64,000 nucleotides of DNA. Source: Acidobacteriaceae bacterium (GTDB lineage Bacteria > Acidobacteriota > Terriglobia > Terriglobales > Acidobacteriaceae). This document shows, in pieces, positions 44,840 through 62,094 of the stretch (its first letter is position 1; each line of letters opens with the position of its first letter). Location: the NCBI GenBank assembly GCA_028283655.1, contig JAPWKE010000002.1, forward strand, positions 40,501 to 104,500, read 5' to 3'. The notes under the pieces were generated by a model. That model was not told the DNA's origin. It worked only from the letters and a program-made list of their open reading frames with translations, and searched no databases. A program made the position numbers and the translations under genes.

Positions 44840-46522
44840 TTAGGGCGCGATGCGGATGTAATCTGCTTCGAGATCGAAGTCTGTGCTGGCGGCGTTCTTA
44901 TTGCTTACGACGAGGTCGATTGTCTTGGCACCCTTGGACATCGTTCCGGTGTAGACGTTGTACGTCTGGTAACCCGTTGCGGAGCTATAAGTGTCATAGG
45001 TGCTGCCAAGCGAAGTGCTGTTAACCTTCACTGCAAATATCCCGTTCGTTGGCCCCGTCTTCATGCGTACGGAGAGCGTGTAGGTTCCGGTTTCCGGGAT
45101 GTATACGCTATAGGTCAGCTTTGAGTCGGTCGCCGCAGCTGTCAGTTTGGTTCCACGCCCTCCGGAGAGAGCTGGATCGGTCGTCTCGGTCTCCGTTACC
45201 GTGCTGCCAGCTGCCGGGCTATAGTGGTTTTCCGCCTCGTAGATGTATCTATAGTCAGTGAGGCTACTGGACATGATGCTTTGGAAGTAATTCCAGGTCT
45301 GCGTGTAATTCGTGGTCGTTGAGCCTGCGTCCTGAGGCCGAATCAGCCAGACTCCGTCGTAATACTGGTTGGGTGAGGTACCAACGAGGCCATTGGAGTA
45401 CAGCTCCCAGAACACGACCCACCGAGCGCCCCAACGCAGGGCGTACTCCACCTGCTGGCCCGTCACGACACGCGCTTTTGCGGAAGTATCGTCACTCCAG
45501 TTATTCCCTCCAGAGTAAAACTGCGATTCCGGGGTGCTGAACTCGCCGATATAGACGTTCTTCGAGCCATACAGTGCCGAATCCGTACGCTTGTTCTGGA
45601 TGTACGCCAGCATCCCGTACAGGTTGTACTCGCTGCCTGGAGTGTCGGCTGAATAGCAGGAGCAGGAGTAGAGGTCCATGGAGATATTCGGGATAACGAG
45701 GTCCACAATGTGCGGATAGTTCCAGGTCCGCGCAAACCCGGTAATGGCGTTCATCTCAGCCGCTGCCGCCACGGTGACGTTGGTCGAGTTTGATTCGCTT
45801 CGGGCTTCGGAGACACCATCCTGCCGCAACTGTAGCCAGAGGATCATGTTGCGTACGGCGATGCAGTAGTCCGTATTGGTTCCGGCGGGGCAGGTTTCGG
45901 TAGACGAAGGCGCCGGGCTGAACGCTGAGGGGTTCAGGTTGTTATCGCCCTCCCAGTGTTGCAGAACGAAGGTCTTGCCCGTGTTGTTATAGGTCGAAAG
46001 CAGAGAGGCGGCGAGGGTCTTGAACTCGTTCTTCACGCAGGCCTGCAATGTGGTGTTTGTCGCAAAGCTGGCGCTCTTCCAATCCGTGGCTGTCCAGGCT
46101 CCTTTGCTGGTCGTCTGGCAAAACTCGTTCGCTTCCAGAATGTAGGTGTTGAAGTTCGAGTCCGCAAAGGTATTTGCGTACGGCGTGGAGTTGGCCAGAT
46201 CTTTCATGGAGTTGATCGTTCCCCAGTTTGTGGTGTGGGGGTAGGCTGTGGCATAGGCGCTTGTGAACCAGAGCTTGATTACATGCGTCCCCAACCCCGT
46301 GCCGAACTCCGTCGATGTAGCCGCGAGCCTGTGTCGACCCTCGTCCATCAGCGACTCGGAGGTGTTGTATTGGTAGAGCGACGTTGTGTTGGTCACACCT
46401 ATCTGGTCCGCAAGGGTGGACGGGGCCTGCTGGGAGACAGCCGTCGTGGGCTGAACAATACTTGCGCCACAGCCGGCTAGAAGCACAGCGGTGAAGAGGC
46501 TCGAAATGCGGAGGCTTGCCAT
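44840..46522 (-). CDS. Putative glycoside hydrolase-like lipoprotein with C-terminal carbohydrate-binding module
   Basis: The 560-residue product starts at the ATG at 46522, with GAGG six bases upstream, and has a lipobox VLLAGC. Residues 40-420 match the Tat-exported protein at 48306-49565 segment by segment: VIKLWFTSAY, FVLQHWEGDNNL, MILWLQLRQDGVSEAR, AEMNAI, VDLVIPNISMDLYS, VYIGEFSTPESQF and WVVFWELYSNG. Four conserved Glu residues at strand ends suggest a clan GH-A-like TIM barrel, with AEMN and GEFSTPE as candidate catalytic positions. The last 140 residues are a CBM6/35-like beta-sandwich (YIYEAENHYSPAAG, FDLEADYIRIAP). The substrate is unknown. It is divergent from the FAD-dependent oxidoreductase gene at 46708. 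Confidence 0.7.
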   Translation of the reverse strand: MASLRISSLFTAVLLAGCGASIVQPTTAVSQQAPSTLADQIGVTNTTSLYQYNTSESLMDEGRHRLAATSTEFGTGLGTHVIKLWFTSAYATAYPHTTNWGTINSMKDLANSTPYANTFADSNFNTYILEANEFCQTTSKGAWTATDWKSASFATNTTLQACVKNEFKTLAASLLSTYNNTGKTFVLQHWEGDNNLNPSAFSPAPSSTETCPAGTNTDYCIAVRNMILWLQLRQDGVSEARSESNSTNVTVAAAAEMNAITGFARTWNYPHIVDLVIPNISMDLYSCSCYSADTPGSEYNLYGMLAYIQNKRTDSALYGSKNVYIGEFSTPESQFYSGGNNWSDDTSAKARVVTGQQVEYALRWGARWVVFWELYSNGLVGTSPNQYYDGVWLIRPQDAGSTTTNYTQTWNYFQSIMSSSLTDYRYIYEAENHYSPAAGSTVTETETTDPALSGGRGTKLTAAATDSKLTYSVYIPETGTYTLSVRMKTGPTNGIFAVKVNSTSLGSTYDTYSSATGYQTYNVYTGTMSKGAKTIDLVVSNKNAASTDFDLEADYIRIAP

Positions 46523-46707
46523 GAGGTACCTCATTTGCGTAGGGAATGATCCTGGGTTTTCCGCCGGAGGGCTATGCGTTCGAACGCTTGTCCTGGGGCA
46601 AATTGCAGACGACCTACCATCGACTCTTACTTGGGGAGAGTCAAAGTAATTGCAGTAATTAGCGGTAAATCCGCTCGGTAAGCAGGCGTTTTTCGCTATA
46701 ACGAGGC

Positions 46708-48309
46708 ATGCTTGATCGCACCATGACACGTCGCCAGGTACTTCGTTGGATTGAAGGCAGTCTCGTCGCTGCCACAGTTAGCGGCAGCATTCCGGCTCGC
46801 GCCTTCGCCGGCGTCGCGACCGTCGACCTCGTCGTCTACGGTGGAACCCCCGCCGGAATTATGGCGGCGGTGACGGCGGCTCATGCTGGTCTGCACGTCA
46901 TCCTGGTTGAGCCTTCAGATCGGCTTGGAGGAATGGTCACCGGTGGTCTTGGTTTGACCGACGTGGGCAACCGTCACCTGGTCGGCGGGCTCACGCTCAA
47001 GTTCTTCCGCCAGGTTGAAGCGCACTATGGAAGCCACGCCTGGAACCTTGAGCCGCACCTTGCACTTCAGTTCTTCGAAGACATGCTCCATGAAGCGAAC
47101 GTTGTGGTGCAGCGCGGCAAGCGCCTTCGCGAGGGGAAGGGAGTTCGAAAGAGCGGAGCAGTCATCGAAGCGCTTCAGTTTGAAGATGGCTCTACCCTCG
47201 AAGCGAGGATGTTCATCGATGCCACGTACGAAGGCGACCTTCTTGCGCAGGCTGCTGTCAGCCACGTTCTCGGGCGAGAAGGCGCTTCGGAGTTCGAGGA
47301 GCCTTGGGGCGGTGTGCAAACCTACCCCAGCAAATATCTACACCTTTCCCCTGCCGACATGAAGGGGCATCTGCTGCCGGAGATCTCTTCGCTTGTTGCA
47401 GCACCTGTGGGCAGTGCGGACAACAGGCTGATGGCCTATACCTTCAGGTTGTGTCTCACGTCGGATGCGAGCAATCGTCTGCCTCTGCCAAAACCACCGG
47501 GCTATGACCCTGCTCGCTACGCGCTGTTGGGGCGGATCCTGCAACATCACGCTCACCCGAACCTCGATGCGGTGGCGAAGTTGAGCCCTCTGCCGAACAA
47601 CAAAATTGATCTCAACAATGCCGGGTTCTTCTCCACGGACTACGTCGGCGGGAGCTCGAAGTACCCAACCGCCAGTTATCGCGAGCGGTCGCGTATCTGG
47701 CAGGAGCACTACAACTACGTTTCCGGCCTTCTCTACTTTCTTTCCAATGAGCCAACCGTCAGCGATGATGTTCGCGGGCGCATGGCGTCTTATGGCCTGG
47801 CGAAGGACGAGTTCACCGGTAGCCACGGCTGGCCAGGACAGCTTTATGTGCGTGAGGCCCGGCGTATGCGTGGGGTCTACACCATGACGCAACGTGACAT
47901 TACAACGGAGACAATCAAGGAAGACTCCGTGGGGATGGGCTCCTATCAGGCTGACTCGCACAATATGCAGCGGCTGGTGGTTGGGCCAGACATGATCGCC
48001 AACGAAGGTGGGATGTTCCATAAAACGGAGCCTTACGCTATTCCGTTCCGCTCGCTGCTCCCGAAACCGGCTGATGCCACCAATCTGTTGGTTCCGGTCT
48101 GCCTGTCGTCATCACATGTAGCGTTTTGCACGATCCGCATGGAGCCACAATGGATGATCCTCGGAGAAGCTGCTGGATTGGCGGTGGCTAAAGCTTTGCA
48201 GGGCAAGACCACGTTGCATCATCTGGAGCCTGCCGCGCTGACCGCCGCTTTGCGCGACCATGGCAGCGTCCTTTCACTTGCAGACGCTGCCATGGCTAAG
48301 AAAGGCTAA
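46708..48309 (+). CDS. Tat-exported FAD-dependent oxidoreductase (FAD_oxidored family)
   Basis: The 533-residue product has a twin-arginine-like signal (TRRQVLRWIEGS), a dinucleotide-binding start VDLVVYGGTPAGIMAAVTAA, then LVEPSDRLGGMVTGGLG and MFIDATYEGDLLAQA. The C-terminal part has YVREARRMRGVYTMTQRD and PEPYAIPFRSLLP-type segments typical of PF12831 oxidoreductases, and the closing FAD contact MILGEAAGLAVAKAL. These are often annotated xanthan lyase or FAD-dependent oxidoreductase near glycan genes; the substrate is likely a sugar or glycoside. The gene overlaps the convergent hydrolase-like gene at 48306 by four bases and is divergent from the one at 44840. Confidence 0.85.
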   Translation: MLDRTMTRRQVLRWIEGSLVAATVSGSIPARAFAGVATVDLVVYGGTPAGIMAAVTAAHAGLHVILVEPSDRLGGMVTGGLGLTDVGNRHLVGGLTLKFFRQVEAHYGSHAWNLEPHLALQFFEDMLHEANVVVQRGKRLREGKGVRKSGAVIEALQFEDGSTLEARMFIDATYEGDLLAQAAVSHVLGREGASEFEEPWGGVQTYPSKYLHLSPADMKGHLLPEISSLVAAPVGSADNRLMAYTFRLCLTSDASNRLPLPKPPGYDPARYALLGRILQHHAHPNLDAVAKLSPLPNNKIDLNNAGFFSTDYVGGSSKYPTASYRERSRIWQEHYNYVSGLLYFLSNEPTVSDDVRGRMASYGLAKDEFTGSHGWPGQLYVREARRMRGVYTMTQRDITTETIKEDSVGMGSYQADSHNMQRLVVGPDMIANEGGMFHKTEPYAIPFRSLLPKPADATNLLVPVCLSSSHVAFCTIRMEPQWMILGEAAGLAVAKALQGKTTLHHLEPAALTAALRDHGSVLSLADAAMAKKG

Positions 48310-49565
48310 GCTTTCAGCAGAAACTCTGCGGGTAACTTCTTCCCGGGGTTCTTCAGGAGTGCCTGAAGATACTTCGCCCCGATCCCAAGTGAGCCGTCTG
48401 GTTTGATAAGCCAGAATCCCGCGAGTCGGGAAAGATCTGTGACTGGCTTCTCCGCATCAGAAGTCTTGCCGACGGTTTCGTTGTCGTAAAGCTCCCACTG
48501 GAAGATGTATGGAATCTTCTTTGCGAAGAAGACAGCCATGGCCGTATCCCACCACTCGGTAATCAACTCCGGGGTTAGCCCAGGCCTCTGCTCTGGCAAG
48601 CCAACTTCGCCGATCATGACAAAAGGCTTCTTCGTACGGTTGAGGCCCGAGTGGTACTCGATAATGTCCAGCCCCTGCCAAGTTTTTACTGCGGAGCCTC
48701 CACCTGCTCCCATGCCGTCATAGCTGGACCAGGAAACGCCATCGACGTTCACATGCGGGATGACATCGGTGATGACGCCCGGCAGGCCATGTAGCGTGTC
48801 ATACACGCGGTTGACCTCGGACACATGGAAGACCTTGCAGGAGGAATGCGGGTTCGCTGCGCGTGCGCGCTCCACACCTGTCTGGCGGGCCTGCAGCCAG
48901 CGGATCATCGCGCCGGCGCGCTCAGAGGCGTCGACCTTGTTGCCGATCTTGTATTGGTCGCGGTCCTTGCCTCGCAGGATCCAATCGCCTTCCCAGTGCT
49001 GCAGGATGAACGTGACATCACGATCTTTAAAGGTATTGAGAAGGTAGTTTGCTAGCTCTTCGAACTGTGCTTCTTCTTGCTCAAAACTCGCCTTGCTGTC
49101 GAGTTCCTGTTTGCGAACTGCACCGACTTCAAAGCTGTATACCTCAAACGGCATGGCAAGCACATGCTGAAAAACCGGAAGCTTGATGATCTCGAGCAAT
49201 CGAGCGTGCGGCCCCAGCGGATACTTCCAGTGGAACTCATACCCTGACAGGCGAGTATCTAGCCATAGCTTGATGGAGCGCATCCCGAACGACTGCAGTG
49301 CCTCGGCACCTTCGATCAAGTAGGGCTTTTCGGTTAGCGAGTACTTCCCTCCGTAGTGTGTTGCGCCAAGCCGATGCAACATGTCGGAAGGGATCGTCGC
49401 CCCGTGTCGTGGGCTCGCTGCCAGGCAGGCCTTCTGGATGATGTCTGGATCTGTAAGGAACGAAGCGTTGGGGGGAGTGGTCTGGAGCCACTTTGCCCTG
49501 AGTGGTCCAGCCGCAGCCATGGACCCTGCGGCTGCGGCTCTTGTGAGAAAAGTACGACGGTTCAA
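48306..49565 (-). CDS. Tat-exported putative glycoside hydrolase-like protein
   Basis: The 419-residue product has a twin-arginine signal (NRRTFLTRAAAAGSMAAAG). It shares with the protein at 44840-46522 the motifs SIKLWLDTRL, FILQHWEGDWIL, MIRWLQARQTGVERAR, SEVNRVYD, DVIPHVNVDGVSWSSYDG, VMIGEVGLPEQ and YIFQWELYDNE. The conserved acidic residues in QHWEGD, SEVN and GEVGLPE are candidate catalytic positions of a clan GH-A-like TIM barrel, but I do not recognise an established family. It lacks the carbohydrate-binding module of its homolog. Its start overlaps the stop of the oxidoreductase gene upstream by four bases, so both are made together. Confidence 0.7.
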   Translation of the reverse strand: MNRRTFLTRAAAAGSMAAAGPLRAKWLQTTPPNASFLTDPDIIQKACLAASPRHGATIPSDMLHRLGATHYGGKYSLTEKPYLIEGAEALQSFGMRSIKLWLDTRLSGYEFHWKYPLGPHARLLEIIKLPVFQHVLAMPFEVYSFEVGAVRKQELDSKASFEQEEAQFEELANYLLNTFKDRDVTFILQHWEGDWILRGKDRDQYKIGNKVDASERAGAMIRWLQARQTGVERARAANPHSSCKVFHVSEVNRVYDTLHGLPGVITDVIPHVNVDGVSWSSYDGMGAGGGSAVKTWQGLDIIEYHSGLNRTKKPFVMIGEVGLPEQRPGLTPELITEWWDTAMAVFFAKKIPYIFQWELYDNETVGKTSDAEKPVTDLSRLAGFWLIKPDGSLGIGAKYLQALLKNPGKKLPAEFLLKA

Positions 49566-51667
49566 GGTTTCACCTCGGAATGATTGGCTGCTGTTGTTTT
49601 CATAGAGGCATTGGCCTGGAGCGCCGTCATCATCCGGTAAAGAATAAGCGCGGCATCTCCTCGTGTGAGTTTCGATTGCTCCCCCAGTGGCATCGCAGTT
49701 GGCACTTCTTCATACCCCTTCCGGTGATTCAGTAGATCTGCCGAGCGCAGGAACGAGTCGCGAGACGCGGACTCCGAAGGGCAGAACATGCCTTGCGTCT
49801 GGCAGGCAGTAACAGCCTTGAGGGCATACAGGCGCTCCACCGGAACAGAGAACCGGTCCCATAGTGGCACATCGCTAAACGTAGGATGAGTAACGACAGC
49901 AGGGCGGAATTCGTTGAACGGTTTCGCGATTTCATACGCCGCCGCAAGTAGCTCGGCAGCTTCGCCTCGGGTAACAACGGATTGCGGCTCAAACGCTCCC
50001 TTATGTGAGGACATCCATCCCTTTGTCTGCACAAACTCAACCGCTTTCCACAGCTCTGTGCCTGGCTCGACATCGGTGTTTTGCTCCTTCGCCAGCACGG
50101 CACCTGCGTCGAGCAACGTCCGCTGCACTACTTCGGGACGTACTTGTCTTGGTTGCAGATGCTCACGAACAGCGATTGCCGCCAAGGCTCCAGCCGCTTG
50201 CCCCGTAAGCATGGTGATGGGTTGCAGGCGAGTAGCACCGTTTGCCAGTCGTGACTGCGAGATGTTTTTCTCTGCAGCCAGCAAGCCATCCACACGAATA
50301 GGAATCAGGCTACCGAGAGGCACTTGAAATGGGCCGCCGCGGAATCCCGGCGGGCTATCCGCGGCGTGCTCGAGGCTGGGCTCCAGATTTGCTTCGCGAT
50401 TGCAGCCATGCAGATCGTCGGCGTAATCGCCTACTGCGATAGAGGAAGGGAAGTTCACTACGGCCTGCTGCGGATTGCCTTCTCGACGAATGTCACTGGC
50501 CGTCAATGTATAGACGCCAATGAGACGACGGCTCTCTCGGAAGTAAGGTATGGGCGGAAGATTGTTCTCGATCTCACGAAACTCCTGTGGAATGTTGGAG
50601 CATGAATGCTGCTCGTTATAACTTCCGTCGAAACCTTCATCGTTTGCCACGGACCAGTCGTGCTCGCCCATGTCGTGCTGAATGTAATAGACCATTTGCA
50701 GCGTTTTCAGCTTCGCTTGGCATACCTGCGTTGTCTTGTTGGCACCCGTGAAATCTCGAACGTAGAACGGAAAATCATTGAACCAGTTCAGCTCGCTCCG
50801 CGTGATTTCAGTGGGCTTGGTGATGTCGACATCGCCAGGAATAGAAGAGTCTGGCAGGCCGCGGTAGACGTTATGCATGGCAAGATCCACCGGTGGCACT
50901 TTGGTCGCTGCGTTGCCGTCCTTGCGCAGTACCATCTGCAGCCGTTTGCGAAGGGATTCGCTGTAGCCCGGGGGAGGCGTATGCATCTGCAACTCTTTCG
51001 GGACACCCTTCTTGTACTTCTTCATGACGGCCACATAGGTGATGCCTTGCACGCAGGCGCTCTGATCGATGTTGTCGCTGGTGGAGTTACCGATGCGATA
51101 GGCTGCGGGCGTTAGCGGAAGCACATCGCCTAGCTCCGTTGCGTCGATAAGCACTGCAGAATGCAGGGTCAACGCTGGCTCCAACACCGCACCCGTGACT
51201 GTATCTCCATCGGTAAGAACACGCACGATGCGATGCTGCAGATAGACATCAAGAACATGGTGCTGTGCGCGGGTCTCTTCAATCATGGAGTAGAGAACGC
51301 GCTGTGCGGCGGAGGGTTCAAAACAGTGCGACAGTATCGTGTAGTAGCAGGTGTGGATGGACTTTCCGCGCTTGTCGTAATACTTCGTCATCCGGTGAAG
51401 AAACTCGCCATAGATGCCGGAGTTTTGTGTGATCGTGCCGCCTTCATCCATCGTGCTTACGGAGGCCGCGGTCATCTGTCCGCCGATCCAGTCTGTCTCT
51501 TCCACGAGAGCAACGCGCGCGCCTAATCGTGCCGCCTGCAACGCTGCCGCGACTCCTCCTGTTCCTGCTCCGGCTATCACGACATCGTAGGTTTTTTCCT
51601 GAGCGTGCGCGGAACAGGCCGCAAGCAGAGTTACCGCAGCAAGTGTTTTCAAAAAGTTCAATCGCAA
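49562..51667 (-). CDS. FAD-dependent oxidoreductase with C-terminal SLH-like repeats
   Basis: The 701-residue product has a signal peptide ending at SAHAQ. Residues 25-510 are an FAD_oxidored domain: YDVVIAGAGTGGVAAALQAA, LVEETDWIGGQMTAASVST, VLIDATELGDVLPL, FRESRRLIGVYTLTASDI and MLTGQAAGALAAIAV. The last 170 residues look like two or three S-layer-homology repeats (ELWKAVEFVQTKGWMSSHKG, VTRGEAAELLAAAYEI, LTRGDAALILYRMM). SLH repeats bind cell-wall polymers, which would tether the enzyme to the envelope. It follows the TonB receptor by 16 bases and overlaps the hydrolase-like gene by four, forming an operon. Confidence 0.82.
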   Translation of the reverse strand: MRLNFLKTLAAVTLLAACSAHAQEKTYDVVIAGAGTGGVAAALQAARLGARVALVEETDWIGGQMTAASVSTMDEGGTITQNSGIYGEFLHRMTKYYDKRGKSIHTCYYTILSHCFEPSAAQRVLYSMIEETRAQHHVLDVYLQHRIVRVLTDGDTVTGAVLEPALTLHSAVLIDATELGDVLPLTPAAYRIGNSTSDNIDQSACVQGITYVAVMKKYKKGVPKELQMHTPPPGYSESLRKRLQMVLRKDGNAATKVPPVDLAMHNVYRGLPDSSIPGDVDITKPTEITRSELNWFNDFPFYVRDFTGANKTTQVCQAKLKTLQMVYYIQHDMGEHDWSVANDEGFDGSYNEQHSCSNIPQEFREIENNLPPIPYFRESRRLIGVYTLTASDIRREGNPQQAVVNFPSSIAVGDYADDLHGCNREANLEPSLEHAADSPPGFRGGPFQVPLGSLIPIRVDGLLAAEKNISQSRLANGATRLQPITMLTGQAAGALAAIAVREHLQPRQVRPEVVQRTLLDAGAVLAKEQNTDVEPGTELWKAVEFVQTKGWMSSHKGAFEPQSVVTRGEAAELLAAAYEIAKPFNEFRPAVVTHPTFSDVPLWDRFSVPVERLYALKAVTACQTQGMFCPSESASRDSFLRSADLLNHRKGYEEVPTAMPLGEQSKLTRGDAALILYRMMTALQANASMKTTAANHSEVKP

Positions 51668-51683: not shown

Positions 51684-54461
51684 CTACCAGAACAACTTCA
51701 GAGCAGCCTGAATCTGGCGAGGCAGATTCTTCTGATTTGAAATAGCGCCAAAAGTGGACAAACCATAAGTCGTCGCCGGCTTGTCGAACTGCGTGCGGTT
51801 GAATACGTTGAACGCTTCGCCACGAAGCTGCAATCTGAGCGCATGGCCCAACTGAATATTTTTGATCCCTGAGAGATCAGAGTTGAGAACACCATGCGCG
51901 CGCAGGTTCGCTGAAAGCCTCGGCACATTGCCAAACTGGAAGGCGAGTGTGTACGCGAACGCAGCGGGGTTCAGATAAGCGACGCCGTTATTGCTGTCTG
52001 GCCCAAGACGGTTCTTCACCGATCCCGTGGTCAGCGCCGCAATGCCTGGAACCTTGTTCGGACGCGTGCCGGAAAGCAGCGGTCCACCCGAGGCTGTGAT
52101 GTTCAGCGGCAGACCGGTCTGCGCTGTGGTGATCGTCGTGATCGACCATCCCCCAATGACGGAGTCGAGCCATACGGGAGCACTATGCAGGAAGTAACGC
52201 CCACGCCCAACCGGCAACTGGGCAATAACCGCAGCGCTAAAACGCTGGGTCACATCTGTCGGGTCCACTGCTCGTTCGATGGCGAGGTTGTACGAGTTCT
52301 GATAACCCGGTGAGCCTGTATCCAGAAAGCTGGTGGTGTTGTTGTTGACGTTACCCAGGCTCTTCGACCAGGTATAGGCCAGGGTTGCGGTAAGGCCCTG
52401 CGCCTGATGACGAAGGCTTACCTGCAGGCTGTTGTAGGATGAAGAGCCGCGAGGCAGATACTGCTCTGTAACACTGGTGTACTGGGGAAACGCTGCGAGA
52501 AGCTGCTTCTGGGTAATCGTCGTTTTCGACAGTGAGCCCGTTGTAACGTACGGTGCAAACGGGTTCGCGTACGTTGCGTATTCCAGCTGGTTGACGGCTG
52601 CAGTATCGCCCAAGTTGCCGAAGTACTTTGGATTGATATCGTTTGCATCGAGATTGATCGGAAGGTGTACGCCATGGGCTCCGGCATAGGCCATGTTGAG
52701 CACGGTCATTCGGGTCAGCTGCGTCATCGCGCCGAAGTTCCACTGCTGCACATAGCCTGGCATGGAGTCGAAGAGCACACTCGAGATATCAGAGCCTGTT
52801 TGTGCTGTTGGTCCTGCGCTGGCGCCTGCAATCTGTGCAATGCCGGTGGGGTAAGGGTTCGAGATAGATCCCGATGCTGTTTGGCCGCCATTGATGGAGG
52901 CAACATAATCGGTGCTCACCGAGAAGCTCGGGTTACCTGCATCGAAGAGTCTCTGCGTGGTGGGAAGGTAGAAAATACCGTATCCACCACGGAGAACGAC
53001 AGATGGATTTAGCGTGTAGGCAAAGCCCACGCGCGGAGCAAACTCCGTCATAGGCATACGCCACATTCTGCGTGTACGCCCACCACTTCCGCCAAACTCG
53101 ATCGTGCCGGAGATTGGCATGTGGACCGCTGGTCCAAGCGGGTTCGCCGCAGTGGGGTTCAGTTGTGAAAGCTTGTTGTTGCGTTCGAGTGGACCGTTTT
53201 CCAGGTCATAACGCACGCCAAGGTTCAACGTCAGTTTCGACAGAATGCGCCAGTCATCTTGAAAGTAGAACGCGTTATACGGCTGAACGTAGGAGAACGA
53301 AGACACGGTCGTCATTGTTCCGGACGTAGGCAGGCCAAGCAGAAAGGACGCGAAGCCGTCGTACTGTGCCTGACCGGTGATGGCTTTGTCCGTACCCAGT
53401 GGGCCGACGGTGAATGTCGTGCTGTATCCGAACGAGCCAGGGCCAGAGGCCGCCGGGAAGACGTTGTTCAGAAAGATGCGGCCATCCCATCCTGCTTGCA
53501 GCGTGTGACGGCCGCGTTGTGACGTAACTCCTGCACCGAAGATCTGTGTGTAGTGACGCAGTTGGGTGGATGCCGTCTGGCTTGTTGCAAGGTAGCCACT
53601 CACACTATCGGTAGGGATGCCGGGAATCTGTTGCAGCGCTGCAAAGTTTGCGGGTAGGCCGTAATCTGTTGCCTTCTGGTTCAAGCCACCGCCGTGCATG
53701 AGGTTGCTCTGCCAGGCAAAGCCGTAGTGCGCATTCAGAACGGTCGAAGGAGTCAGTACGACGGTGTTGTCCCACTCGATCACAGATGCTTTCAGGGTCT
53801 GGGCCTGGGCATTCGCTTCGGTATAGGTGCCGAAAGGGCCACCGCGGTTATCGAGGTTTGTGCTGTAGGTTCCGCGTACCAGAAAGCTGTAGCGTGAATT
53901 GACCGTGCGATCGATGCGGCCGCTATATTGCCAGTCCGTATCGAACTGCTTGGCAAAGTAGCCATAGTTCAACGTGGAGCGCGGCTGCTGCGGATTGGGG
54001 AGGTTTGGCAGTGGCCACAAAGCCATCAGCTTCTGCGCGATCGGGTTCTGTCGATCCAGCGGGACGATGCAACACTTTCCTGCAGCATTGTTGGGCAGAG
54101 GCTGCCGCTGCACCACGCCGCCGACGGTTACCGTATTGCTCGGGTCATAGACGATGCCAGGCCCTTCCGAAAGATCGCCCGAACGCATCAGGGGAGTCGG
54201 AACTGTAATTTCCGTATAGTTACCGCGGCTCGAACGCACGCCCTCAAAGCCGAAGAAGAAGAACGTCTTTCTTCTATCCAGCAGGTGTGGAATCCATAGA
54301 GGTCCGCCTAGCGTTCCGCCAAACTGGTTGTAGACCAGAGGCTGGCGTGCTGCTCCGTTGTGGTTCGCAAACCAGTCGTTTGCGTCTACTGCAGAGTTGC
54401 GGATGTACTCGTAGAGATCACCATGCACTCGGTTGCCACCAGACTTCGTTGTAATGTTCAA
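51684..54461 (-). CDS. Oar-like TonB-dependent receptor, C-terminal part of a frameshifted gene
   Basis: This 925-codon frame holds most of the plug and the whole barrel. It opens with NITTKSGGNRVHGDLYEYIR, which in Oar-like receptors directly follows the G-G-V of the plug. Later come RQPLVYNQFGGTLGGPLWIP, FFFGFEGVRSSRG, NLGVRYDLENGPLERN, and a C-terminus with LQLRGEAFNVFNRTQFD and a terminal aromatic residue (LKLFW). The TTG at 54461 is not a credible start; the true start is at 55231 and the two frames meet at 54458-54466. The barrel is an outer-membrane transporter for a glycan or peptide, and neighbours suggest a glycan. Confidence 0.85.
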   Translation of the reverse strand: MNITTKSGGNRVHGDLYEYIRNSAVDANDWFANHNGAARQPLVYNQFGGTLGGPLWIPHLLDRRKTFFFFGFEGVRSSRGNYTEITVPTPLMRSGDLSEGPGIVYDPSNTVTVGGVVQRQPLPNNAAGKCCIVPLDRQNPIAQKLMALWPLPNLPNPQQPRSTLNYGYFAKQFDTDWQYSGRIDRTVNSRYSFLVRGTYSTNLDNRGGPFGTYTEANAQAQTLKASVIEWDNTVVLTPSTVLNAHYGFAWQSNLMHGGGLNQKATDYGLPANFAALQQIPGIPTDSVSGYLATSQTASTQLRHYTQIFGAGVTSQRGRHTLQAGWDGRIFLNNVFPAASGPGSFGYSTTFTVGPLGTDKAITGQAQYDGFASFLLGLPTSGTMTTVSSFSYVQPYNAFYFQDDWRILSKLTLNLGVRYDLENGPLERNNKLSQLNPTAANPLGPAVHMPISGTIEFGGSGGRTRRMWRMPMTEFAPRVGFAYTLNPSVVLRGGYGIFYLPTTQRLFDAGNPSFSVSTDYVASINGGQTASGSISNPYPTGIAQIAGASAGPTAQTGSDISSVLFDSMPGYVQQWNFGAMTQLTRMTVLNMAYAGAHGVHLPINLDANDINPKYFGNLGDTAAVNQLEYATYANPFAPYVTTGSLSKTTITQKQLLAAFPQYTSVTEQYLPRGSSSYNSLQVSLRHQAQGLTATLAYTWSKSLGNVNNNTTSFLDTGSPGYQNSYNLAIERAVDPTDVTQRFSAAVIAQLPVGRGRYFLHSAPVWLDSVIGGWSITTITTAQTGLPLNITASGGPLLSGTRPNKVPGIAALTTGSVKNRLGPDSNNGVAYLNPAAFAYTLAFQFGNVPRLSANLRAHGVLNSDLSGIKNIQLGHALRLQLRGEAFNVFNRTQFDKPATTYGLSTFGAISNQKNLPRQIQAALKLFW

Positions 54462-55231
54462 AAGCCGCCGCTCGAGCGCCCGTAGTTTGCTGGCGGAACG
54501 TTCGTCTGCACCTTGAACTGGGAAACGATATCGGCATTTGGAATCAGGGCTGGCTGTCCCTGGCAGCAGACTGTTACAGGAATGCCATCCAGAAGAATCT
54601 CGTTCATGCCTGCCACACCACCGTTGGCCCGGAAGTTATTGGCTCCTGCCGCAATTACCGCGCCACGATTGGTGGAAAGGCCAATGCCGAAGTCTCCACC
54701 GGGAAGAACTCCCGGTGCCAGTGCTGCCAGTGCAAAAACGTTGCGGCCATCGAGTGGAAGGTCTTCGACCTCACGTTGAGAGATCACGGTGCCAAGGTCG
54801 GACGTGTTGGTCTCAATCGTTACGCTATCCGCGTTCACTTCTACAACGGTGTCTGCTGAGCCGGCCCTGAGCCGGAAATCGAAGCGCTGCAACTGAGCAA
54901 CTTCGAGGTTGAATGTCGTCTCAGTCTTCGAAAACCCCGGTTTCCCAATGAGCAGGCGATACGATCCTGCCGAAACATTGGCGAAGGAGTAGATTCCCTC
55001 TCCGTTGGTTTTCATTGAACGCGAGAGGTTGGTGCTCGTGTCGGTCAGTGTGACGGCGGCGTTTGGAACCAAGGCTCCAGAGGCGTCGGAGACGCTTCCG
55101 CTGACAGAACCGTTGGCGGCTTGAGCAAACGCTCTATGAGCGAGCAGCAGGATGACGGCAGCCAGCAAGCAAACGACCCTGGAGCCTCTGCGACGCGTTG
55201 CATGTGTCTTTTGATGTACAAGAATCTTCAT
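54458..55231 (-). CDS. Oar-like TonB-dependent receptor, N-terminal part of a frameshifted gene
   Basis: The 257-residue product starts at the ATG at 55231, with GGAG eight bases upstream. It has a signal peptide ending at RAFAQ, a carboxypeptidase-regulatory-like domain (ANGSVSGSVSDASGALVPNA, GIYSFANVSAGSYRLLI) and the first half of the plug (ISQREVEDLPLDGRNVFALA, GGVAGMNEILLDGIPV). The frame ends at TGA after YGRSSGGF. One missing base in the TTTT run of GGCGGCTTTTGAAC on the coding strand restores the join to NITTKSGGN. It lies five bases after the NHL gene and is probably co-transcribed with it. Confidence 0.85.
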   Translation of the reverse strand: MKILVHQKTHATRRRGSRVVCLLAAVILLLAHRAFAQAANGSVSGSVSDASGALVPNAAVTLTDTSTNLSRSMKTNGEGIYSFANVSAGSYRLLIGKPGFSKTETTFNLEVAQLQRFDFRLRAGSADTVVEVNADSVTIETNTSDLGTVISQREVEDLPLDGRNVFALAALAPGVLPGGDFGIGLSTNRGAVIAAGANNFRANGGVAGMNEILLDGIPVTVCCQGQPALIPNADIVSQFKVQTNVPPANYGRSSGGF

Positions 55232-55236
55232 CTGTC

Positions 55237-57486
55237 CTACTCCACGGTCAGCACGACGGTCGTGCTGTGAGTGATGGCTCCAGAGGTGGCATTCACGGTG
55301 ATGTTGTAGGTCCCGGAAGCTACATTGGCATTGGTCTTCATGCTGCTTCCAGAGCAGCCGGCCGTAGCGCCTGTTATCGCAAGCAACGCTATGGCCAGCC
55401 ACGACGATGGTCGGCGGCGGAAGAAAAGCAAGCCAAAGCACAGGCTCGCGAGTATTGTGAGACCAGCCTGCCTTGCATTGATCGACGTTGCCGCGGAGGT
55501 CGTGTTGATCGCCAGAAGCGAGACGTAAGTGCCGTTGGTGGCCAGCGTCACGCTTGTTGGAGCGAAGCTGCAACTCATATTCGTCGGTAACGATGCACAC
55601 GATAGGGCAACCGTTCCTGAAAATCCGTAGATTCCTGTGACCGTGATTTTGGTTGCGTCCGTATGCCCCGCAGGCACGGATGCCGCTGGAATCCCCGGTA
55701 CAACGGTGAAGTCTGGCGCACCAGCGTAGACCGTCACGGTTGTTACGGTGGAAGTGGAGGGTTTATACGTTGGGTCACCGTTATAGGAGGCTGTGATGTT
55801 GTCTGTGCCTGTCGGCAAGGCTGTCGTCATTAGCGCGGCCGCACCGTTGACGATGCTGCTTGTGCCAAGTAAAGACACGCCGGAGTAAAAGCTGATCGAC
55901 CCGGTTGGCGTACCGCCAGTGGCAGAAACGACAGCGGACAAAGCAACGGCCTGCCCGGCGTAGGTTGTTTGCGTGGAGACTCTCAGCGTTGTTGCCGAAG
56001 CAACCGTCGCGTTATAAACACCGGTTCCCGTGAGGGAGACTGTTATCTGCCCGGAAGGTTCATTCGCTGCAGTCGTCGCGACCAGCAGGCTGGCATTTTG
56101 TACACCGTTGAGCGTAGGCGAAAACGTAACGCTGATCTGGCAGGTTGATAGCGGTGCCAGCGTTGTTCCACTGGCGCAATCGGTTCCACCTGAGGCCACC
56201 TGTTTGTAACCCGTCGGCACGATGATGCCCGTAATATCCAGCGCACTCGTACCTGTTGAAGTCAGCGTTACGGTCTGTGCGGTGCTGTCCTGTAACGCGA
56301 CGACCGTACCAAAGTTCAACTGAGTTGTCAGTGTGTTGACCAGGCGAACGCGCGAGTCACCGTAGTCCAGGATGTAGAGGTTCCCCTTGCTGTCCAGCGA
56401 GACGCTATGCGGCAGGTTGATCTCAGCGGCATTCGCATAGCCAGCGTCGCCCGTGTACCCGGCTGTTCCAGTACCGGCGATGGTAGAAATGATGCCCGTG
56501 CCATCGACGTAACGAATGCGATTGTTGTTGTAGTCCGCGATGTACAGATTGCCTGCTGGATCTGGGACGACATCCTGCAGCAGGTTCATGCTTGCTGAAG
56601 TGGCTGCTCCGCCGTCTCCTGCATAGCTCGCTGTTCCATTGCCGGCAACTGTAGACATGATGCCGCTCAGATTGATTTTGCGCACGCGAGCGTTTGTCGT
56701 GTCGGTGATGTAAAGATTTCCCGCAGCGTCTTTCCACATACCTTCCGGTAGTGCAAACTTGGCGGAGAGTGCGGGGCAGCCGTCGCCAACGGTGTTGGTA
56801 GCTCCACTACAGACGGTCGTGGCTCCGGCATACTTGGCGATCGTGCCATTCGTGATCGTCCGGATGCTGTTGTTGCCCGAGTCGGCGATATAGATAATTC
56901 CGGCTGCGTCGACATATACGCCGCGAGGAGCATTCAACGTGGCTGAGGTCGCCGCGCCGCCATCGCCGGTCGAGCCTGCCGTGCCCGTCCCTGCGATCGT
57001 GCTGATCACGCCGGCGGTCGTAATCTTGCGAATGCGATTGTCGCCCGAGTCGGCAACATAGATTGTCCCGTCAGCCGCCACATACAAACCGCGTGCGGTG
57101 GAGCTGAACTGCGCCTGAAGCGCTGGTCCACCATCGCCACAGGTGGAAGTCGATGGCGTGCAGGCTGTTCCGGTACCTGCTACCAGATTGATGTTTCCGT
57201 CCGTTGTGACTTCGCGGAGCTGAGCGTTCCCCGTGTCCAGAATGTAGACATTCCCTGCGGCGTCGGTTCGCACGGCGTCTGGGTAGTTGAGCTTTGCGGA
57301 GATCGCAGGCCCACCATTCCCTGTGCTGCCGCGAGTTCCCGTGCCGGCAAACGTGCTGATGATGCCAGGTGATACGGCTACGCTGGGCGACTGCGCATGC
57401 AGCGTTCCGCCAGCAGCAGCGAGCAGAGAAACGGCGCTCGCAAGGATGTAAGCGCAATAGGTTGGTTTGTTTCCGCTAAGGTCCAC
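55237..57486 (-). CDS. Secreted NHL-repeat and Ig-like protein with unusual C-terminal tail
   Basis: The 749-residue product is assigned a GTG start at 57486 because AGAAGGAG lies ten bases upstream; a TTG at 57540 has none. A signal peptide ends at LHAQ. About six NHL repeats follow (NVYILDTGNAQLREV, GTIYVADSGDNRIRKI, NLYIADYNNNRIRYV), then a beta domain and a bacterial Ig-like domain (PTGSISFYSGVSLLGT). The C-terminus repeats the architecture of the protein at 9356-11608: a hydrophobic helix, FFRRRPSS, a second helix ending TAGCSGSS, and a tail TYNITVNATSG ending VVLTVE. It precedes the TonB receptor and may help bind its ligand. Confidence 0.82.
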   Translation of the reverse strand: MDLSGNKPTYCAYILASAVSLLAAAGGTLHAQSPSVAVSPGIISTFAGTGTRGSTGNGGPAISAKLNYPDAVRTDAAGNVYILDTGNAQLREVTTDGNINLVAGTGTACTPSTSTCGDGGPALQAQFSSTARGLYVAADGTIYVADSGDNRIRKITTAGVISTIAGTGTAGSTGDGGAATSATLNAPRGVYVDAAGIIYIADSGNNSIRTITNGTIAKYAGATTVCSGATNTVGDGCPALSAKFALPEGMWKDAAGNLYITDTTNARVRKINLSGIMSTVAGNGTASYAGDGGAATSASMNLLQDVVPDPAGNLYIADYNNNRIRYVDGTGIISTIAGTGTAGYTGDAGYANAAEINLPHSVSLDSKGNLYILDYGDSRVRLVNTLTTQLNFGTVVALQDSTAQTVTLTSTGTSALDITGIIVPTGYKQVASGGTDCASGTTLAPLSTCQISVTFSPTLNGVQNASLLVATTAANEPSGQITVSLTGTGVYNATVASATTLRVSTQTTYAGQAVALSAVVSATGGTPTGSISFYSGVSLLGTSSIVNGAAALMTTALPTGTDNITASYNGDPTYKPSTSTVTTVTVYAGAPDFTVVPGIPAASVPAGHTDATKITVTGIYGFSGTVALSCASLPTNMSCSFAPTSVTLATNGTYVSLLAINTTSAATSINARQAGLTILASLCFGLLFFRRRPSSWLAIALLAITGATAGCSGSSMKTNANVASGTYNITVNATSGAITHSTTVVLTVE

Positions 57487-59037: not shown

Positions 59038-61659
59038 CTAAAACGCGTCCACCAGAGAAGTCACCTGTAAGGAGCCCTTTAGCGTGGCCAGTTTTGCCGG
59101 GCTGCTCACCTTCACCACTACTTCCTGGCCGGGCAGCAAGGTCATGAAGTTATCAGACAAAGAGGTGTTGTTGTCGCCAAAGGTCAGGTACACATTGCGC
59201 GCTAGCACGTCGCTGCGTAGCCGCACGTCATACTTTCCGTTTGCGCCGGTCAGCATCGCGGAAAGCGCTGGCTTCGCGAGCTTCAGGTTCTTCATGATGT
59301 CGAAGTAGACAAGGTTCCGCGACTCAATCTTCCCATTTGCGGGCTGTAGCAACTCGGCCACCAGTACTGTGTTCTCGCGAGACACCTTTGTGCCCAATAA
59401 CTCAGCTTCGCTCAGGGTGATTGCGTTCCGGCTCGTGTGGGCTGCTGCGATGACTTCCTGCTGCTTCTGCCACAGTACTTTGCCGGAGAAGTCCATCAGT
59501 TGCAAGCGCAGGTTCAACTTCGCAGGTTGGCTCAGATCCGAGATAACAAAAACTTTCACCTTGCCGTCATGGCGGTAAGGTGAAACCAGCAGGTCGTTAT
59601 AGAAGTCGCGTGCATAGTACTGCAGCGCCTTCCAGTGCCCCAGCGAATCGATGCTAGACCACGACGCTACTGGCCAGCAGTCGTTCAACTGCCAGTAGAG
59701 TGAACCCATGGTGCGCGGCATCTCCCGGCGAAGATGCTCGGCCCCAACCTTGATTGCCTCGGCCTGCTGCACCTGGCTCAGATAAACAAAGGACGCAAAG
59801 TCCTTTGGCTCACGGTACTCGCGCTGCATGTAGGTGTGGATGCGCGTGTTGCCGCCGTCGTTCTTCTGGTGAGCCCGCATCACGGGCGAGTCGATATTGA
59901 AGTCGGAGGGCTTGGCAAACGTCCTAATCGTCTGCATATCCGGAAAAGACTGGAAGCCGTACTCGGACATGAAGCGTGGCGAGTGTTCGTTGTACGCTTC
60001 AATAGGTTTCAGCCCGTGCCATACATCCCAGTAATGCCGATCCCCGTTCGTTTCGCTGTCTGGCGCTTCGTCATAATCTGCGCTTGGCGAGCTCGGCCAG
60101 TAGGGAACGCCTGCCCCTTCGCGCAACACCACACCCTTCAGCACATCGTTGAAGAGAAGCTGGTAATTCCGGTGAACGGCCTGCCTTTGTTCCGGCGTAA
60201 GGTCTTCCAGAAACTTCTTGTAGTTGCCCCAGTGCAACATGCCCGTTTCCAACTCATTGTTGCCGCACCACAGCACGATGCTCGGATGATCGCGGAGTCG
60301 GCGCACCTGTTCCTGCGCTTCCTGTGCGACGTTCTCGCGGAACTCTGCTCCGCCCGGAACCATCGCCCCACCGAACATGAACTCCTGCCAGACCATTAGC
60401 CCGAGTTCGTCGGCCGTGTCGTAGAAATCGTCCGACTCGTAATAGCCTCCTCCCCACGAACGGATCATGTTCATGTGAACGTCTTTTGCCGCCTGCAGGA
60501 TTTTGTGATGGGTCGCTGGCGTTACGCGGCTGGGGAAGCTATCGAATGGAATTGTGTCAGCACCTTTTGCGAAGACAGGTACGCCGTTCACCACGAACTC
60601 AAAGCTCTTGCCCCATTGGTCTGCCTTTCGACGCAGCTCTATGGAGCGCAACCCGGTCTTCACATCGGCGCTGGCTCCGGCAACCTCTACGTGCATTTTG
60701 TAGCGGTTTGGTTCGCCGTAACCGACTGGATTCCACAGCGCTGGCTTCGCGATGTCGAACGGGAGATCGAGTGTCGTGTCGCCTTTTTCAAGGTGAACGG
60801 TCTTATGCAGCGTCCGCAGGGTGCTGCTTCCTATCTGCTCGTAACGCAGCGTCAACTCGCGATCTCCGGCGGTGTCAGACTCCATCTCGACGTTGGCCCT
60901 CAGTTGCGCCAGGTCACTCGCAATCTTCACCTGCTCTATATGGAAGTCTGTAATCCGTGCACCATCCCATGTTTCCAACCGAACGGGCTTCCAGATGCCC
61001 TCGGTAACAAAACGCGGTCCCCAGTCCCAGCCAAAGTTGTAGGGAGCTTTGCGAAGATATGGGTCGGTCGCCACGCCATCTTCGCTCAGCACGGCCACCT
61101 GGCCCACCGTCGGCAGGTGATACGGCATTGCCTTCACGATCGGCAACATCGTCCGAATGGGAGAGTGAAACTGCACCAGTAATTCGTTATCGCCTTCGCG
61201 CAGCCGATCTCTTACTCCCGCACTCCACTGCCGAAACATGTTGTTGGCCTTGATCAGCGGCTGTCCGTTCAGCGTGACGTCGGCTAATGTATCCAGTCCG
61301 TCAAAGACCAGCTCCACATGCCCATGCGCCAGCTCTGATCGTGAGACCTTGAAGTGCAGGCGGTACTGCCAATCCGCCAGACCGATCCACTGCAGCCCGG
61401 CTTCGTTGGTTCCGTAGAACGGCTCGGGGATCAGCTTTGCTGCCAGAAGGTCTGTTTGCACCACTCCCGGAACCTCTCCCGGATGCCACTGCGCAGCTTC
61501 AGCCAACGGCGTCGCTGTGGTTGCGCGAAACTCCCATCCTGTCTTCAACTCACGGCTGGCCGCCATGGCAGGGAGGCTGCAGCCGAGCATGAGAAGAACA
61601 TTGCAAGCTGAACGAAAAGAAGGAAGGCGCATGAGGCCAACGATAGAGCGTCTTTCCAT
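59038..61659 (-). CDS. GH2 beta-mannosidase-like glycoside hydrolase
   Basis: The 873-residue product has a signal peptide ending PAMAAS; the ATG at 61659 is taken as start, though an ATG nine codons later would also serve. The GH2 sugar-binding domain (WQYRLHFKVSR, NMFRQWSAGV, PYNFGWDWGPRFVTEG) precedes the TIM barrel. The barrel has MIRSWGGGYYESDDFYDTAD, the acid/base Glu in VLWCGNNELETG and the nucleophile Glu in RFMSEYGFQSFP. These motifs match beta-mannosidases rather than beta-galactosidases. C-terminal beta domains follow. It removes terminal beta-mannose in the periplasm. It leads a run of six genes on the minus strand. Confidence 0.92.
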   Translation of the reverse strand: MERRSIVGLMRLPSFRSACNVLLMLGCSLPAMAASRELKTGWEFRATTATPLAEAAQWHPGEVPGVVQTDLLAAKLIPEPFYGTNEAGLQWIGLADWQYRLHFKVSRSELAHGHVELVFDGLDTLADVTLNGQPLIKANNMFRQWSAGVRDRLREGDNELLVQFHSPIRTMLPIVKAMPYHLPTVGQVAVLSEDGVATDPYLRKAPYNFGWDWGPRFVTEGIWKPVRLETWDGARITDFHIEQVKIASDLAQLRANVEMESDTAGDRELTLRYEQIGSSTLRTLHKTVHLEKGDTTLDLPFDIAKPALWNPVGYGEPNRYKMHVEVAGASADVKTGLRSIELRRKADQWGKSFEFVVNGVPVFAKGADTIPFDSFPSRVTPATHHKILQAAKDVHMNMIRSWGGGYYESDDFYDTADELGLMVWQEFMFGGAMVPGGAEFRENVAQEAQEQVRRLRDHPSIVLWCGNNELETGMLHWGNYKKFLEDLTPEQRQAVHRNYQLLFNDVLKGVVLREGAGVPYWPSSPSADYDEAPDSETNGDRHYWDVWHGLKPIEAYNEHSPRFMSEYGFQSFPDMQTIRTFAKPSDFNIDSPVMRAHQKNDGGNTRIHTYMQREYREPKDFASFVYLSQVQQAEAIKVGAEHLRREMPRTMGSLYWQLNDCWPVASWSSIDSLGHWKALQYYARDFYNDLLVSPYRHDGKVKVFVISDLSQPAKLNLRLQLMDFSGKVLWQKQQEVIAAAHTSRNAITLSEAELLGTKVSRENTVLVAELLQPANGKIESRNLVYFDIMKNLKLAKPALSAMLTGANGKYDVRLRSDVLARNVYLTFGDNNTSLSDNFMTLLPGQEVVVKVSSPAKLATLKGSLQVTSLVDAF

Positions 61660-61845: not shown

Positions 61846-62094
61846 ATGGTTCTTTCGCGGCTCGCCCTCGCAGTCAGTGTGTTCGTGTCCGGTTGTACCT
61901 TCGTGGTTTACGCTCAACGCCTGACTCTTCCACCCATCTTTGACGATCACGCCGTCCTCCAGCGAGGAGCGCCTATCGCCGTTCACGGCCACGGTATGGC
62001 TGGCGCAACAGGTATCGGCTACCTTCGATGGAACCACCGTCACCGCTGCTATTTCTTCTTCAGGTGCCTGGGAAGTGCGTTTCCCCGTACATGA
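61846..62094 (+). CDS. Sialate O-acetylesterase-like protein, N-terminal part of a frameshifted gene
   Basis: The ATG at 61846 gives a signal peptide ending VVYAQ and the family N-terminus LTLPPIFDDHAVLQRGAPIA with VHGHGMAGAT. After Thr the frame departs from the family pattern and ends at 62094. The next family segment (VSATFDGTTVTAAI) is in the +1 frame; removing one G at 62011-62012 joins them. The true protein would therefore be about 514 residues. Confidence 0.8.
   Translation: MVLSRLALAVSVFVSGCTFVVYAQRLTLPPIFDDHAVLQRGAPIAVHGHGMAGATGIGYLRWNHRHRCYFFFRCLGSAFPRT

Follow-up and report, generated by a model that had tools for sequence, protein, structure and literature searches.

The window analysed here is a stretch of 64,000 nucleotides from an Acidobacteriaceae bacterium (GenBank assembly GCA_028283655.1, contig JAPWKE010000002.1, positions 40,501 to 104,500 of the forward strand), and all coordinates below are counted from its first letter. 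It carries two genes on the minus strand whose products, P0001 and P0002, share a set of motifs that includes QHWEGD, and which we describe as members of a putative family of glycoside hydrolases (GHs). P0001 (44840..46522; 560 amino acids) is a lipoprotein composed of a QHWEGD-family barrel (approximately residues 40–430) and a C-terminal beta-sandwich module; the lipobox LLAGC was recognized by eye near its N-terminus. P0002 (48306..49565; 419 amino acids from a TTG start) is a single-domain barrel of the same family with a twin-arginine translocation (Tat) signal (TIGR01409, matched at 19.0 bits where the cut-off is 16.7). The two are homologous: BLASTP aligns them at 70.5 bits and E = 2e-17, with 71 identities over 254 aligned positions (28%), and their Smith-Waterman score is 181, whereas 300 shuffles averaged 37 and reached no more than 61. 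The motifs IKLW, QHWEGD, WLQ(L/A)RQxGV, (A/S)E(M/V)N, GE(V/F)xxPE, WELYxN, and WLI(R/K)P follow in identical order in both. An earlier note on this DNA, which did not mention the strand, had given the same coordinates and had described a lipoprotein and a Tat-exported protein with seven ordered motifs in common; these statements were borne out.

A scan of genome contigs with P0002 as the lone query gave no match, but a six-row profile then recovered the family, comprising 119 encoding stretches from 132 candidates among GTDB species genomes and a further member on an IMG/VR contig. As the scan relied on a single peptide pattern, [TEV]F[IV][LIF][QL][HN]W[EQ]G, the figure of 119 is a lower bound. 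The best 80 of the 119 stretches, two of which lie on one contig, form the loci studied; by record title they belong mostly to Planctomycetota, with Verrucomicrobiota, Acidobacteriota, Hydrogenedentota, Armatimonadota, Bacillota, Bacteroidota, haloarchaea, and others also represented. The family is widespread and occurs in both bacteria and archaea. A tblastn search over plasmids found three haloarchaeal RefSeq records, all annotated "hypothetical protein." Within the phylum of the window, matches were confined to two of 297 genomes at E up to 1e-6 and two of 247 at E up to 1e-3, the window's own genome being included in each count, and none was found in 12 other genomes of the same genus or eight of the same order. 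The member from IMG/VR (L089:4980-6038) is divergent, with 28% identity and a very long branch, and two from genomes of the window's phylum (L003 and L008) have long C-terminal extensions, that of L008 without a Pfam match, lie on a distant branch, and carry LNWEGD.

In a quick tree, made without bootstrap, P0002 clusters with two Verrucomicrobiota sequences and one from Chitinophagaceae (SH-aLRT 100), and P0001 with sequences from Lentisphaerota, Spirochaetota, and Clostridia (SH-aLRT 96, with long-branch warnings for P0001). Because the two fall into different subclades, they are probably not recent duplicates, and a recent duplication within the window was rejected. The string QHWEGD was absent from the 5.39 million papers searched. 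Excerpts of papers on new clan GH-A or other GH families, GH5_18, or the host phyla contained nothing recognizable as this family, the excerpt of PMC3526467 said nothing about conserved residues, and literature on the FAD-dependent oxidoreductase family PF12831 together with polysaccharide utilization offered nothing useful.

Structure prediction used an alignment of 75 rows, consisting of the two window proteins and 73 loci, with two shorter loci left out. The AlphaFold2 model of P0002 made with it (pLDDT 88.9, pTM 0.89) is a confident (beta/alpha)8 barrel whose eight strands follow in order at residues 66–69, 97–103, 142–148, 185–189, 244–251, 276–280, 315–321, and 354–357; that of P0001 (78.2) is a barrel with a beta sandwich of low confidence. 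The predicted fold is the TIM barrel, any other fold having been named in the earlier note as grounds to abandon its proposal. Foldseek returned 93 PDB matches to P0002 at E up to 0.001, of which the best 50 are all glycosidases by title, including a PslG row that we take to be one. The first row is a GH5_18 enzyme (9y4v; E = 1.4e-7, TM-score about 0.5, root-mean-square deviation 6.6), followed among the matches listed by GH39, 1,4-beta-galactanase, GH5_4, beta-glucuronidase, mannanase, and GH10 entries. The 50 VIA-align rows listed for P0002 are likewise all glycosidases (Z 20.4–22.1, 286–313 residues aligned at 3.4–4.2 A), as are the 50 listed for P0001, where a GH164 beta-mannosidase is aligned over 298 residues (Z 21.4, 4.1 A). 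The top Foldseek rows for P0001 are enzymes that combine a barrel with a carbohydrate-binding module (CBM), at TM-scores of about 0.3. A barrel fold in common is by itself no proof of function, and the lists are long and tied, so that no other clan GH-A family is excluded on structure.

Proteins of clan GH-A have a (beta/alpha)8 barrel in which strands 4 and 7 each carry a catalytic acid at the C-terminal end, and they act with retention, as stated in the excerpt available of PMC5725463. Conserved Glu residues occupy both positions in the predicted barrels. In P0002, E192 (48990..48992) lies just after strand 4 (185–189) and is the predicted acid/base, whereas E320 (48606..48608), at the end of strand 7 (315–321), is the predicted nucleophile; a third conserved Glu, E250 (48816..48818), lies in strand 5 (244–251). 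The counterparts in P0001 are E191 of QHWEGD (45950..45952), predicted as acid/base after strand 4 (184–188), E327 of GEFSTPE (45542..45544), predicted as nucleophile in strand 7 (323–328), and E256 of AEMN (45755..45757) in strand 5 (250–258); all six codons are on the minus strand.

Conservation was assessed across 81 domains: 74 kept loci, L089, the two window domains, and L003, L004, L005, and L008; six of the 80 kept loci (L032, L065, L069, L073, L074, and L079) were left out owing to an in-frame stop in the match. In P0002 numbering, Glu is found at E192 in 80 of 81 domains, at E250 in 80 of 81, and at E320 in all 80 sequences. The Glu of WELY (E358) is Gln in 64 of 79 and Glu in 13, so the four Glu residues previously called invariant are so for the window pair, and only three of them across the family. 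F186, W191, G193, R227, P270, and D275 are each conserved in 81/81 domains, and conservation is complete or nearly so at D194 (80/81), N252 (80/81), G319 (80/80), and W357 (79/79). Position 190 is His in 49 domains and Asn in 32, giving a strand-4 signature of [HN]WEGD. Because the scan pattern required W[EQ]G, the conservation of T185–G193, including the counts for W191 and E192, is partly imposed; that of D194, E250, and E320 is free of this bias. Four rows from outside the window were found without the pattern, and these have W-E (L003, L005, and L008) or W-Q (L004).

Profile-profile alignment was made against families built from relatives (17 GH5, 16 GH42, 9 GH10, and 20 GH39 rows). In the GH5, GH42, and GH10 profiles, E320 aligns with a conserved Glu that we take to be their nucleophile, and in the GH5 alignment a basic residue of strand 2 is in register along with the strand-7 Glu. 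The scores were 33.6 for GH5, 32.1 for GH42, 23.1 for GH10, and 17.7 for GH39, compared with 22.1 and 15.6 for the non-GH-A barrel controls GH13 and DHDPS; only GH5 and GH42 are clearly above these controls. A barrel of non-GH type was also considered, the same control profiles scoring below GH5 and GH42. We regard it as likely that P0001 and P0002 are glycoside hydrolases with the layout of clan GH-A, that is, a predicted barrel with its acid/base at strand 4 and its nucleophile at strand 7.

P0001 and P0002 probably represent a new family of enzymes. Searched singly against Pfam, NCBIfam, and PDB chains, the two barrels gave no convincing match, nor did any of the 75 aligned members convincingly match an enzyme family in either Pfam or NCBIfam. 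Among the 25 of 30 Pfam families listed for these members, none was found in more than four of the 75 (best E, 0.0022), and PF00150 (GH5) was absent at E up to 0.5; the families beyond those listed were no better than E = 0.17, and neither window protein matched PF00150 at E up to 1. NCBIfam yielded the expected Tat match and five single-member families at E = 0.0031 or worse. A profile of the family found nothing below E = 1 among all PDB sequences. The profile search proposed by the earlier note thus produced no match to a known enzyme family in Pfam or NCBIfam, CAZy itself not having been compared, and "undescribed" is used here in the sense that no Pfam, NCBIfam, or solved-structure sequence matches and that the three RefSeq plasmid records are annotated only as hypothetical.

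The newness of the family nevertheless carries doubt, because the proteins might represent a strongly diverged offshoot of an established CAZy family, either GH5_18-like or from a clan GH-A family that has no Pfam model. GH5_18 heads the Foldseek list, and it is the sole glycosidase in the PDB profile search, where it forms the first rows (E = 1.3) over strands 7–8, the Glu of the former and the Trp of the latter being in register. We consider this origin unlikely, given the absence of PF00150 from the families listed for the 75 members, the lack of any PDB profile match with E below 1, and a strand-4 signature that differs.

Several observations weigh against the assignment to a clan GH-A-type hydrolase. 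Clan GH-A enzymes typically have an Asn directly before the acid/base Glu, and here position 191 is Trp in 81/81 domains, a count that is partly imposed by the pattern. With [HN]-W-E in place of Asn-Glu, E192 may lie away from the canonical position. No profile-profile score was significant (the HHalign probability for GH5 is 21%), the GH10 score is barely above the controls and that of GH39 is not above them, the GH5 alignment misplaces the strand-8 Trp by one column, and the GH39 alignment leaves E320 unpaired. No characterized glycosidase was matched by sequence. Foldseek also lists non-barrel rows for P0001 (CBMs and Cry5B), matched by the module, and its TM-scores are low. Natural variants without one of the candidate Glu residues exist (L004 has Gln at E192, and L005 has Ser at E250), and the commonest families listed among the nearest neighbors of family genes, described below, are not specific to mannan or xanthan. 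As Trp replaces Asn before E192, we call the family GH-A-like rather than a member of the clan; of the earlier proposal of an undescribed GH-A-like family, the predicted fold, the Glu positions, and the lack of a Pfam or NCBIfam model stand, and the canonical Asn-Glu is missing at strand 4.

The same Trp is the reason for keeping a second alternative, in which the proteins are glycoside hydrolase barrels that use E250 as the acid/base, or a catalytic pair other than that of strands 4 and 7, in a mechanism unlike that of clan GH-A, with E192 and D194 binding substrate. E250 is conserved equally with E192, and of the two counts only that for E250 owes nothing to the search pattern. L005, however, lacks E250 but retains both E192 and E320, and E192 is at the C-terminal end of strand 4, the site of a catalytic acid in clan GH-A according to the excerpt of PMC5725463; we judge this mechanism to be distinctly improbable. 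The haloarchaeal plasmid member L004 (L004:9938-11842), which has WQGD at the predicted acid/base and lies near an integrase and a GH99-like gene, offers a natural test of the catalytic assignment.

The surroundings of the two genes in the window look like a polysaccharide-utilization cluster. A gene for a flavin adenine dinucleotide (FAD)-dependent oxidoreductase (PF12831, E = 2.5e-102) lies between them on the plus strand (46708..48309), and a second (49562..51667, minus strand; PF12831, E = 4e-83) is directly upstream of P0002, whose start overlaps its stop by 4 bases. Further members of the cluster are a TonB-dependent receptor (51684..55600, minus strand), a GH2 beta-mannosidase-type glycosidase with Mannosidase_ig and Ig_mannosidase domains (59038..61659, minus strand), and a SASA-type carbohydrate esterase (61940..63391, plus strand; E = 1.6e-21). 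The receptor is in two frames (51684–54461 and 54458–55600) that join at about 54458–54461, near a short T run, which may reflect a genuine frameshift, two coupled genes, or an error in the sequence. Two genes on the minus strand have no Pfam match: one at the cluster's other end (40953–42476; 507 amino acids) resembles, by eye, a solute symporter with multiple membrane spans, and another (57615–58988; 457 amino acids), with one membrane span by eye, is perhaps a cluster regulator.

The nearest relatives of P0002 lie beside SusD, two PF12831 genes, a major facilitator superfamily transporter, and two SASA genes (L087), beside an SSF symporter and an adjacent GH130 (L086), and beside GH10 and a sulfatase (L084). 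In the subclade of P0001, L085 is accompanied by PF12831, a solute-binding protein, a transport permease, GH94, and a gene matching PF06439 (presumably DUF1080) at E = 2e-7, beside a similar Laminin_G_3 match. In Paenibacillus (L057), a GH2 open reading frame precedes that of the family and overlaps it by 4 bases (judged from the first start codon), and a Beta-lactamase-family gene and GH38 come after. BLAST relatives of the PF12831 genes were found in four of 81 loci (L087, L085, L024, and L028, the last two weak), and relatives of the L086 GH130 in four of 81 (L086, L063, L027, and L067; the 81 loci amount to about 1.04 Mb). For comparison, 24 of the 99 whole genomes taken from the window's phylum have GH130, genome G000 not among them; because the lineages differ, the GH130 comparison is indicative only. 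The 94 nearest neighbors (from 111 chosen under a size limit that excluded most loci above L070) most commonly belong to Aminotran_3, the class-III aminotransferases (7), Amidase (3), and GH28 (3), and the 90 wider neighbors (from 105 chosen at 23 hand-picked loci) to Sulfatase (4) and BPD_transp_1 (4), in each case among the 25 families listed of more than 100. These counts speak against a narrow common theme. The planctomycete loci L012, L013, L015, L019, L024, L030, L037, and L041 share a gene of approximately 434 amino acids (11 loci in total) and one of approximately 755 (10 loci in total).

Taken with these neighbors in several lineages, the export signals and the near-invariant acidic residues at the barrel mouth make it very improbable that the family is a non-catalytic glycan-binding barrel or another class of enzyme on the same fold, although it has no known activity and L004 lacks E192.

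The carbohydrate-binding module that the earlier note had reported in one of the proteins finds support in approximately residues 451–558 of P0001 (44849..45172, minus strand), a beta sandwich that may be a CBM84-, CBM35-, or CBM6-like module and whose best sequence matches are MiXBM, which we take to be a xanthan-binding module, and part of a xanthan lyase. When the C-terminal 130 amino acids were searched alone, they matched MiXBM (7ehg) at E = 1.1e-4 and part of the xanthan lyase of Paenibacillus (6f2p) at E = 1.2e-4; the C-terminus of full-length P0001 matches 7ehg at E = 6.4e-4. Its model has strands within 458–559 at low to middling pLDDT, with CBM6 and CBM35 rows in Foldseek, and Malectin is matched in Pfam only at E = 0.062. 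Excerpts of PMC10881899 and PMC5673643 describe GH38, GH94, carbohydrate esterases, and ABC transporters at xanthan loci and, in a planctomycete without PL8, beta-mannosidases and a DUF1080 endo-xanthanase. Because these genes overlap those of L057, L085, and the window, a xanthan-like acidic polysaccharide would be a good first guess for the substrate, with acetylated beta-mannan second. More generally, and tentatively, the substrate may be a polysaccharide that bears acetyl groups and beta-mannosyl (or other beta-linked) residues, for example an acetylated mannan or an exopolysaccharide of xanthan-like type.

On the homology, the predicted fold, the positions and conservation of the Glu residues, and the gene neighbors, all of which are computed, we base a model in which catalysis, retention, localization, and substrate are inferred. 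E192, as acid/base just after strand 4, and E320, as nucleophile in strand 7, would bring about retaining cleavage of beta-glycosidic bonds. P0001 and P0002 would act within one polysaccharide-utilization locus, the former, a lipoprotein with a binding module, attacking polymer on the cell surface and the latter, a Tat-exported single domain, trimming oligosaccharides in the periplasm; the GH2 beta-mannosidase, the SASA esterase, and the FAD oxidoreductases would complete the breakdown. A bolder proposal, which we think rather unlikely as a whole, is of a GH family of bacteria and archaea that has kept the GH-A barrel, rebuilt the strand-4 signature as [HN]WEGD with Trp replacing Asn, and put a third, strand-5 Glu to use, and that cleaves acidic exopolysaccharides of xanthan-like type in their side chains or backbone, partly in lineages without xanthan lyase.

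If this is a GH family, a recurrent sugar-cleaving activity would escape routine annotation, as no Pfam or NCBIfam model was found for it. The proteins are short and exported, with three mutable Glu residues and a small substrate panel suggested by their neighbors, so that activity is directly testable. A strand-4 signature that truly departs from Asn-Glu would probe how tightly clan GH-A constrains the acid/base site.

Among known systems, GH5, and in particular the beta-1,4-mannosidases of GH5_18, resembles the family in its barrel (here predicted), in providing the best Foldseek match of P0002, and in a strand-7 Glu that is in register with the GH5 profile (not significantly) and with GH5_18 (E = 1.3). 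It differs at strand 4, where GH5 usually has Asn-Glu and the family [HN]WEGD, and at strand 6, where S-x-S of the family stands in place of the usual GH5 residues. The GH164 beta-mannosidase Bs164 shares with P0001 the barrel (Z 21.4), and GH164 also bears further domains; identity to P0001, however, is 10%, and the family profile did not recover GH164 PDB chains at E up to 5. The first Foldseek match of P0001, the endo-beta-1,3-glucanase CBM6E (8j3x), is composed of GH128 and CBM6 according to the excerpt of PMC10956234 and is thus also a barrel with a beta-sandwich module, but the identity is 11–12%, the TM-score is about 0.3 over the query, and no sequence relation was seen. A parallel case is GH148 (EngU), which the excerpt of PMC5725463 presents as a clan GH-A family established without a clear resemblance to the families already known: it follows the same barrel logic with only weak local similarity to these, but INNEN surrounds its acid/base, and a CBM is inserted into it.

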